From: a virus
IMG/VR virus record: IMGVR_UViG_3300007609_000100
Coordinates: 1-21,970 of that record
DNA length: 21,970 bases
Reading direction: 5' to 3' (one strand)
The position numbers and the translations under genes are program-made. The notes under the pieces were generated by a model, which was given only the letters and a program-made list of their open reading frames with translations, had not been told where the DNA came from and did no database searches. Numbering within the stretch: position 1 is the first letter of the stretch; each line of letters starts with the position of its first letter. Below are positions 4,414 to 5,606 of this stretch, in pieces.

Positions 4414-4565
4414 GCGTATGGGAGTTTATAGGGTGGGTAATTGCTGTGCCACTGGCACTAACGAGCTTGGTCTTTGTGTTTGCGGTGAGCGTTGCTGTTG
4501 TACGGGTTACTGCGAAACGAGCACGACGCAAGACTGCGACTAGACACCTAAGACCAGTTGACTAA
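4410..4565 (+). CDS. Small single-pass membrane protein
   Basis: 51 aa from ATG 4410, chosen over an upstream in-frame ATG at 4377 because it overlaps the previous stop as ATGA and has GGGGAGGTGG just upstream. Residues 4-34 are strongly hydrophobic (FIGWVIAVPLALTSLVFVF onward), then come many Arg and Lys (RVTAKRARRKTATR), so the N-terminus is expected outside and the basic tail in the cytoplasm. A holin is possible by size, but the position in the replication block and the absence of an endolysin argue against it. The stop overlaps the next start. Confidence 0.65.
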   Translation: MSVWEFIGWVIAVPLALTSLVFVFAVSVAVVRVTAKRARRKTATRHLRPVD

Positions 4566-4885
4566 TGGCAACGTACGACCCACCGGCAGACGTCCAGAAC
4601 GCAGCTAAACGCGCCCTAATCTGGATCGCAGAGGGTCGCGCAGGGTCAGGCTTTACCGACACTGGTAGAGCTCGAGCCGTGCAACTCGCTAACGGTCGCC
4701 CAGTATCAGACGAGACCATAACCCGTATGCGGTCATTCTTTGCCAGGCAGGCAGGTAACAAAGACGCCGAGGGTTTTTACCGTGGCGAGGACGGTTACCC
4801 GAGCCCTGGCCGTGTCGCTTGGGACGCCTGGGGTGGAGACCCTGGGGAGCGCTGGGCTAACTCGGTGCGACTCCCAAACGAGTAG
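4565..4885 (+). CDS. Small phage protein with conserved GRVAWDAWGGDPG motif
   Basis: 106 aa; ATG 4565 overlaps the upstream TAA (TAATG). Residues 45-66 are helical (SDETITRMRSFFARQ) and residues 75-100 contain YPSPGRVAWDAWGGDPGERW. I know this combination (a helix ending in SFFARH-like text, then PSPGRIAW.LWGGD.G..W) from stand-alone phage proteins and as an appendage on some phage structural proteins; its function is not established to my knowledge. Its TAG stop (4883-4885) ends on the first base of the tRNA-like element. Confidence 0.7.
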   Translation: MATYDPPADVQNAAKRALIWIAEGRAGSGFTDTGRARAVQLANGRPVSDETITRMRSFFARQAGNKDAEGFYRGEDGYPSPGRVAWDAWGGDPGERWANSVRLPNE

Positions 4886-4963
4886 GGGCAGTATCGGTAT
4901 CGCCGGTAGCGAAAGCCACACGTGGATCGTTACCGTACGCCAGTTCGACTCTGGCCTGCTCCA
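4885..4963 (+). ncRNA. tRNA-like element with alanine-type acceptor, no regular anticodon arm
   Basis: A 7-bp acceptor stem pairs GGGGCAG (4885-4891) with CTGCTCC (4956-4962), with a single G3.U70 wobble, followed by A4963 in the discriminator place. Bases 8-9 are TA. The T arm is perfect: GCCAG-TTCGACT-CTGGC (4939-4955), matching the TTCRANY T-loop consensus. Between them there is no 5-bp/7-nt anticodon arm; the best fold is a 9-bp hairpin (4904-4912 with 4927-4935, one G.U) with a small inner CCA/TGG stem. G3.U70 plus A73 are alanyl-tRNA synthetase identity elements and are also universal in tmRNA. CCA is not encoded (CTA follows). It could be a functional tRNA mimic, a decayed tRNA, or an attachment-site copy. 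Confidence 0.5.
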
Positions 4964-4995
4964 CTAGCTCCCTACCCTCGACCGAGTGGCAGGGT

Positions 4996-5028
4996 GTATT
5001 TTTATATAAACGTGTATATAAGTACACG
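4996..5028 (+). promoter_or_regulatory. AT-rich block with two TATATAA boxes and a dyad, candidate late promoter/operator
   Basis: This is the most AT-rich patch in the intergenic region. TATATAA occurs at 5003-5009 and again at 5015-5021. A 6-bp dyad, CGTGTA-TATAAG-TACACG (5011-5028), overlaps the second box. It lies about 50 bases before the HNH gene that opens the packaging module, which is where a promoter with an overlapping operator would be expected. No clear -35 box is visible. Confidence 0.4.
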
Positions 5029-5076: not shown

Positions 5077-5382
5077 ATGGCCCACAACTGGGACAGTAGC
5101 ACAAGACCTAAAGACCCCCCCGGCTGGGCTAAGACCCGGGCCCTAGTGATCCAACGAGCAGGTGGCTTATGTCAACACGAGGACGGCTGTACACACAACG
5201 GTACGGACGTGGACCATATAGTAAACCTGGCGGCCGGCGGAAACCACGACCTAAATAACCTGAGACTACTGTGCACTTGGCACCATAAGCGTAAGACAGC
5301 ACAAGAGGCAGCACAAGCAAGGGCCCGTATGGCAGTACCCCGAGAGGTACGACCTAAACAAAAGCACCCCGGCCTCGCGTAG
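5077..5382 (+). CDS. HNH endonuclease (packaging-associated)
   Basis: 101 aa. Residues 29-34 (CQHEDGC) with a later Cys-x-x-His (CTWHH) form the zinc knuckles; the catalytic HNH core is VDHI, then HDLNNLRLLC, ending in HHKRKT. This is the small HNH family encoded beside terminases in many cos-packaging phages, where the nuclease is needed with the large terminase for cutting genome ends. Here a primase gene intervenes before the terminases. The Pro pair in KDPPG is encoded by a seven-C run, a potential slippage point. Confidence 0.9.
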   Translation: MAHNWDSSTRPKDPPGWAKTRALVIQRAGGLCQHEDGCTHNGTDVDHIVNLAAGGNHDLNNLRLLCTWHHKRKTAQEAAQARARMAVPREVRPKQKHPGLA

Positions 5383-5606
5383 GTAGGGGGACCCACCCCC
5401 CTCCCCCCCCACTCCCTGCCCGGGGAGGGGCTGTAGTTCGCTGTGCGTGCAATACTCCAAGCTTTACCCCCTGGCTGGCGCTGTGCGACTGGATAAAAGG
5501 CTTACCAGTATTGCCACGGGTGGCGAGACGTTTGTACAGGCTAGAGGCTTAGACAGGCGCAGAATCGCTCGTTGCCGTTTATCGTTACACCTGGTAAAGT
5601 CGCGGT
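5383..5606. other. 224-bp non-coding junction, GC-rich hairpins; possible cos region
   Basis: No gene seen. The first 50 bases are made of G and C runs, including eight C at 5403-5410, and can fold into two hairpins: GGGGG/CCCCC at 5386-5400 and CCC-A-CTCCC/GGGAGGGG at 5408-5430 (loop TGCCCG, one bulged A). No T tract follows, so an intrinsic terminator is doubtful. Phages with an HNH gene next to terminase usually carry cos near here, so this is the best place for genome ends, but I cannot define an overhang. Bases 5431-5606 show no feature I can name. Confidence 0.35.

Follow-up and report, generated by a model that had tools for sequence, protein, structure and literature searches.

The window analysed here, meaning the whole 21,970-base stretch of DNA that makes up the IMG/VR virus record, is a siphophage-like genome whose terminase, portal-like and tail genes identify the carrier as a phage, with the terminase closest to those of Gordonia phages at ~53% identity. 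A phrog_2859-like gene (4565–4885) is followed by an 82-nt RNA gene (4885–4966, measured to the CCA-equivalent position) and an HNH endonuclease gene (5077–5382), all on the plus strand, as are the parts of the RNA and the hairpin that follows it. The first G of the RNA doubles as the final base of the upstream gene’s TAG stop codon, and in relatives without the RNA this upstream gene abuts the HNH gene. We assign the RNA to the tRNA-like domain (TLD) of tmRNA, as a “TLD-only” tmRNA gene, from a match to the Rfam tmRNA family RF00023 and from the compensatory changes in its syntenic homologues. A scan for promoter-like sites detected none, and immediately downstream an imperfect G+C-rich hairpin followed by ATTTTT (4967–5003) is, from its fold, tentatively a possible intrinsic terminator, which the consensus scanner did not report as one. 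Between the HNH gene and a primase-like gene lies a C/G-rich run (window ~5383–5440), and many related contigs start within ~200 bases of it; the run may be a physical genome end (cos), which would place the TLD near the right end.

Structurally, the body of the element (4885–4963) opens with the 5′ acceptor strand GGGGCAG (4885–4891), which forms 7 bp with the 3′ strand CTGCTCC (4956–4962); together with the discriminator A73 at 4963 the latter spans 4956–4963, and it sets U70 opposite G3. Between the two strands lie a D-loop region, TATCGGTATCGC (4892–4903), of the tmRNA type GGNNTCG and with no D stem; a 9-bp P2 helix (4904–4912 paired with 4927–4935) that replaces the anticodon stem; a linker TAC (4936–4938), which is GAC in most of the TLD-only family; and a T arm, GCCAG-TTCGACT-CTGGC (4939–4955). 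Within P2 sits an apical hairpin, CCA-CACG-TGG (4916–4925), whose 3-bp stem and CACG loop, with an A-rich internal loop (GAAAG) directly before them, are a family signature, and at the 3′ end CTA occupies the CCA position (4964–4966). A preliminary description of this DNA, made from its letters alone, had reported the 7-bp acceptor with G3.U70 and A73, the T arm with TTCGACT, TA at positions 8–9 and a 9-bp hairpin where the anticodon arm would be, and we find each of these where it had been placed.

When the window was compared with all Rfam families by cmscan, a single match was obtained, to tmRNA (RF00023) at 4885–4966, with 52 bits (cut-off 47) and E = 4.7e-18; this Infernal result, a check that the preliminary description had proposed, also bears out its estimate that the arrangement was beyond chance. 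A whole-record search with RF00023 (E 1.1e-21) agreed with the full-window search, and the score depends on search mode, with a 501-base slice and permissive settings giving a 5′-truncated alignment of 8.6 bits. In control bacterial genomes, sub-cut-off matches to the same model scored at most 38.6 bits and have lengths that make ordinary tRNAs their probable source. The alignment matched both ends of the model (1–374) and skipped most interior positions, and the folding z-score of the element is −3.0. All features of a tmRNA TLD (acceptor, D loop, P2 and T arm) are present in the 82 nt, which contain neither a resume codon nor pseudoknots nor a reading frame for a tag; nor does the element have the form of a tRNA, with no anticodon arm and no D stem, and P2 with its apical hairpin instead. 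The element is thus a complete tmRNA TLD without a message domain, and a two-piece or permuted tmRNA with its message half elsewhere is ruled out because P2 is closed by the element’s own hairpin. The alanine/tmRNA-type acceptor had been seen correctly in the preliminary description, which went astray in holding the element far too short for tmRNA, since what is present is the TLD alone. ARAGORN, also among its proposed checks, reported no gene at the element.

Evolutionarily, the element belongs to a gained-or-lost accessory cassette. The HNH-gene search for relatives yielded four loci only, of which L327 was decisive. TLD-only elements occupy the window site in L082, with flanks that align at ~69% identity, and in L327, which has an apical hairpin identical to that of the window and whose contig also gave L006, with a terminase 92% identical. 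In L002 (same contig as L260) the flanking genes lie 14 bases apart with no RNA between them, and in L261 they adjoin each other and the RNA is absent. Across the window, L082 and L327, standard pairs fill 59 of 60 paired cells and 8 pairs are changed on both sides (3 acceptor, 1 T stem and 4 P2), so that the compensatory change once suggested as a test in relatives is found and the pairing is conserved. Because the syntenic copies are compensated and relatives without the RNA exist, the cassette is kept as an RNA structure, and selection maintains the window element as an RNA gene. The contig of L082, the nearest TLD relative, also carries a diversity-generating retroelement RNA (RF03022, 77 bits, at 1266–1387).

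Beyond these relatives, a motif search of viral contigs returned at least 120 stretches, and a first set that combined viral motif matches with bacterial genome matches comprised at least 88 distinct sequences, at least 74 after removal of near-duplicates. P2 played no part in selecting this set. Because MAFFT placed the 5′ acceptor strand one or two columns off, pairs were counted in a structure-anchored alignment. Among the 74 non-redundant matches listed, the first seven pairs of P2 are paired in 82–99%, the variable P2 pairs show both-sided changes in 35–46 of the 74 sequences, and sliding the P2 partner by 1 or 2 positions lowers pairing to ~24–55%. None of 1000 shuffles reached the observed pairing at the variable P2 pairs, a result that lends support and is not a probability, since the shuffles ignore relatedness. 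The filter applied to the first set itself forced G3.U70, and the pair was therefore retested with the 3′ side free and then with the acceptor free. With the 3′ acceptor side left unconstrained, the matches listed from the first set have U70 in 62/62. The second search motif, limited to the D loop, apical hairpin and T arm with the acceptor unconstrained, returned 76 contigs, all with 7/7 acceptor pairs and 5/5 T pairs; in the 57 distinct sequences among them, G3.U70 and A73 are each invariant (57/57), and acceptor pairs 4–6 are highly variable, with compensatory changes.

In total, we collected at least 131 distinct TLD-only tmRNAs, 109 of them from viral contigs, 20 from bacterial contigs and 2 from named phages, which makes this a large family that for the most part lacks annotation. 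G3.U70 is present in all of these (131/131, in part through filter selection), A73 in 130/131, and the apical signature AR-N-CCN-CAYG-NGG in about half (70/131); the signature is absent from the 12 full-length tmRNAs compared. In its D loop the window lineage reads TCGCC, with a C at a position that is A (TCGAC) in nearly all others. Among cultured phages, TLD-only genes occur in Streptomyces phages LuckySocke, GiJojo and pSt2308 and in Stenotrophomonas virus Jojan60, and Streptomyces phage BRock has one that has diverged further; these copies sit among annotated tRNA genes while themselves unannotated as RNA genes. BLASTN of the window element against named phages gave only fragments of 18–30 bases, and consensus-like queries succeeded. 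An association with tRNA arrays is seen at some loci (L083, L086, L117, L162 and the Streptomyces phages); as a general rule it was rejected, since it does not hold for most loci. Run on the TLD-only loci, ARAGORN reported no tmRNA in most and full-length tmRNAs with doubtful tags in three, and such genes are missed or misread by annotation tools. Bacterial genomes with a TLD-only gene mostly also have a full-length tmRNA.

Functionally, alanyl-tRNA synthetase is known to recognise G3.U70 and A73 as identity elements, and SmpB binds tmRNA at the D loop and elbow. The alanine identity element is conserved in the family and the message domain is absent, as is SmpB from the viral side (0/50 viral records, many of them fragments, so that the phage-encoded content is a lower bound), and a control search found SmpB in 10 bacterial genomes; with no SmpB in those viral records, host SmpB would have to serve. 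We posit, as a reading that is rather probable on sequence and by analogy, that the phage TLD-only RNA is charged with alanine, engages the SmpB of the host and either blocks trans-translation or diverts it. The course we infer leads from transcription to inhibition: the transcript would probably be co-transcribed with the preceding gene and trimmed by host tRNA-processing enzymes, host alanyl-tRNA synthetase would charge it with alanine via G3.U70 and A73, host SmpB and EF-Tu would bind the charged RNA, and this would enter stalled ribosomes without a resume codon, tag or stop, leaving host ribosome rescue (trans-translation) jammed or diverted. The option of a charged mimic in the preliminary description would thus point in the right direction, with charging itself predicted from sequence. 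In E. coli, a TLD-only-like molecule is reported to be a strong inhibitor of tmRNA in both chargeable and unchargeable form, perhaps via SmpB titration (PMC4131195, PMC11915505, both citing Mao et al. 2009). An inhibitor or diverter is favoured because the alanine and SmpB features are kept, the message parts are absent and a molecule similar to the known precedent, the TLD-only tmRNA of mycobacteriophage DS6A, inhibits tmRNA. The strictness of G3.U70 suggests something more than passive SmpB titration, and a purely passive sponge is doubtful because titration needs no charging, yet G3.U70 is strictly kept. Selected charging would point to entry into the A site, either as a dead-end acceptor or in tag-less rescue. 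For the window lineage in particular, the C in the D loop may count against the predicted SmpB binding.

How the RNA might act otherwise, or not act at all, is weighed against the same features. Since integration at ssrA is common and a tyrosine integrase occurs in 6/50 viral records, the window element could be an attachment-site (att) copy of a host ssrA end, or else a functionless decayed tmRNA or tRNA, and the preliminary description had raised both att copy and decayed tRNA. We consider this very improbable: the integrases of those 6/50 records lie kilobases from the RNA, none is among the annotated genes around the window element, and in 12 bacterial contigs the acceptor and T stem of the TLD-only gene are generally unlike the ends of the same genome’s full-length tmRNA. 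The att copy was rejected because the whole TLD is present, with the 5′ half kept as well as the 3′ half, and decay is contradicted by abundant compensatory changes. Gordonia phage Yeezy and Mycobacterium phage Shandong1, by comparison, have only the 3′ end of ssrA, beside an integrase, and these fragments look like real attachment sites. For the TLD-only family as a whole, sequence comparison indicates that the att/decay reading is already refuted.

A more serious contender, though still an unlikely one, is tag-less rescue, whereby the alanylated RNA and SmpB would accept the nascent chain and another factor would release the peptidyl-RNA, so that ribosomes would be freed and phage proteins would receive no proteolysis tag. 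The strict alanine identity suggests that the charged form matters, which would suit this scheme, as would the mitochondrial tmRNAs that coexist with SmpB and likewise have no message domain (PMC11915505); however, a similar molecule inhibits tmRNA whether chargeable or not (PMC4131195), and no release factor gene is seen beside the window element. Less likely again is a charged decoy for which SmpB would be incidental and the main target would be alanyl-tRNA synthetase, EF-Tu or a defence protein that either cuts tRNA/tmRNA or resembles SmpB. Strictly kept G3.U70 and A73 would be expected of such a decoy, the conserved apical hairpin that full-length tmRNAs lack could bind a further partner, and CoCoNuT restriction systems are described as containing SmpB-like domains (PMC11090510), whereas the conserved tmRNA-type D loop argues for selection on SmpB recognition.

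TLD-only phage tmRNA is already known as a kind, to which the window element adds: the tmRNA of mycobacteriophage DS6A is listed as “TLD only” on the tmRNA Website and as “Standard, no CDS” in a 2025 database (PMC4131195, PMC11915505). The likeness, drawn from published descriptions, consists in a phage gene with a tmRNA TLD and no reading frame. With standard one-piece tmRNA (ssrA, RF00023) the window element shares the G3.U70/A73 acceptor, the D-loop motif, the base of P2, a GAC-type linker and the T arm, but it lacks the message domain along with pseudoknots, a resume codon and a tag, and its P2 is closed by a short hairpin. A TLD without a tag reading frame is also found in mitochondrial tmRNAs (RF02544) and in two ~65-bp Mallomonadaceae plastid genes (PMC11915505); these are organellar, and the mitochondrial ones, for which tag-less rescue has been proposed, differ further in that they are usually permuted genes used with a nucleus-encoded SmpB. 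Full-length phage tmRNAs, such as those of mycobacteriophage Bxz1 and Streptomyces phage Daubenski, are phage-borne too, but with a tag reading frame. We found no published survey in the openly licensed literature that showed a TLD-only tmRNA in more than one phage, and that literature appears not to report how large the family is, its apical signature, the strictness of the alanine identity or the chromosomal copies in Poribacteria. Phage effects on ribosome rescue have been little studied, and the TLD-only phage tmRNA, with a single published case, seemed a curiosity. Should the inhibitor reading be true, an RNA of 80 bases that shuts down or reroutes trans-translation is present in many phages, trans-translation as a limit on phage growth becomes testable, and nature supplies a compact inhibitor of a pathway studied as an antibiotic target; strict conservation of charging amid otherwise freely varying sequences is a specific clue to the mechanism. 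Going further, and with confidence somewhat short of even, we suggest that TLD-only tmRNAs could form a major class of phage RNA that has escaped notice and for which the apical hairpin is diagnostic. On this view they would be selected for charging and for active entry into stalled ribosomes as dead-end or tag-less acceptors, not as passive SmpB sponges, and a related form could be a resident chromosomal gene beside the normal tmRNA in one Poribacteria clade.

Among bacteria, eight Poribacteria MAGs (L205, L206, L210, L211, L215, L217, L226 and L227) contain an 86-nt TLD-only tmRNA, and near-full-length copies of it occur in 10/85 genomes of the phylum. A convergent gene of ~540 aa, probably a PLP-dependent decarboxylase from its sequence, lies near this RNA and is conserved in 7/8 genomes; most of these genomes also carry full-length ssrA. 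The Poribacteria RNA looks chromosomal, and its apical loop is different. Minimal forms of 68–69 nt, in which P2 is closed by a short loop with no apical hairpin, were seen in L129 (115–182) and L166 (8246–8314), and in Tunturiibacter phage Tunturi_4 (L243) an annotated RF-1 domain release factor (ArfB-like) lies just upstream of an ssrA-like 3′ end, a candidate neighbourhood for phage rescue factors. One 136-kb viral record (G053, locus L153) has two TLD-only tmRNAs, at 42520–42602 and 109671–109753, and a 123-kb viral record (G031, locus L098) has both a TLD-only RNA (46486–46567) and a full-length-scoring tmRNA (77588–77979, 94 bits).
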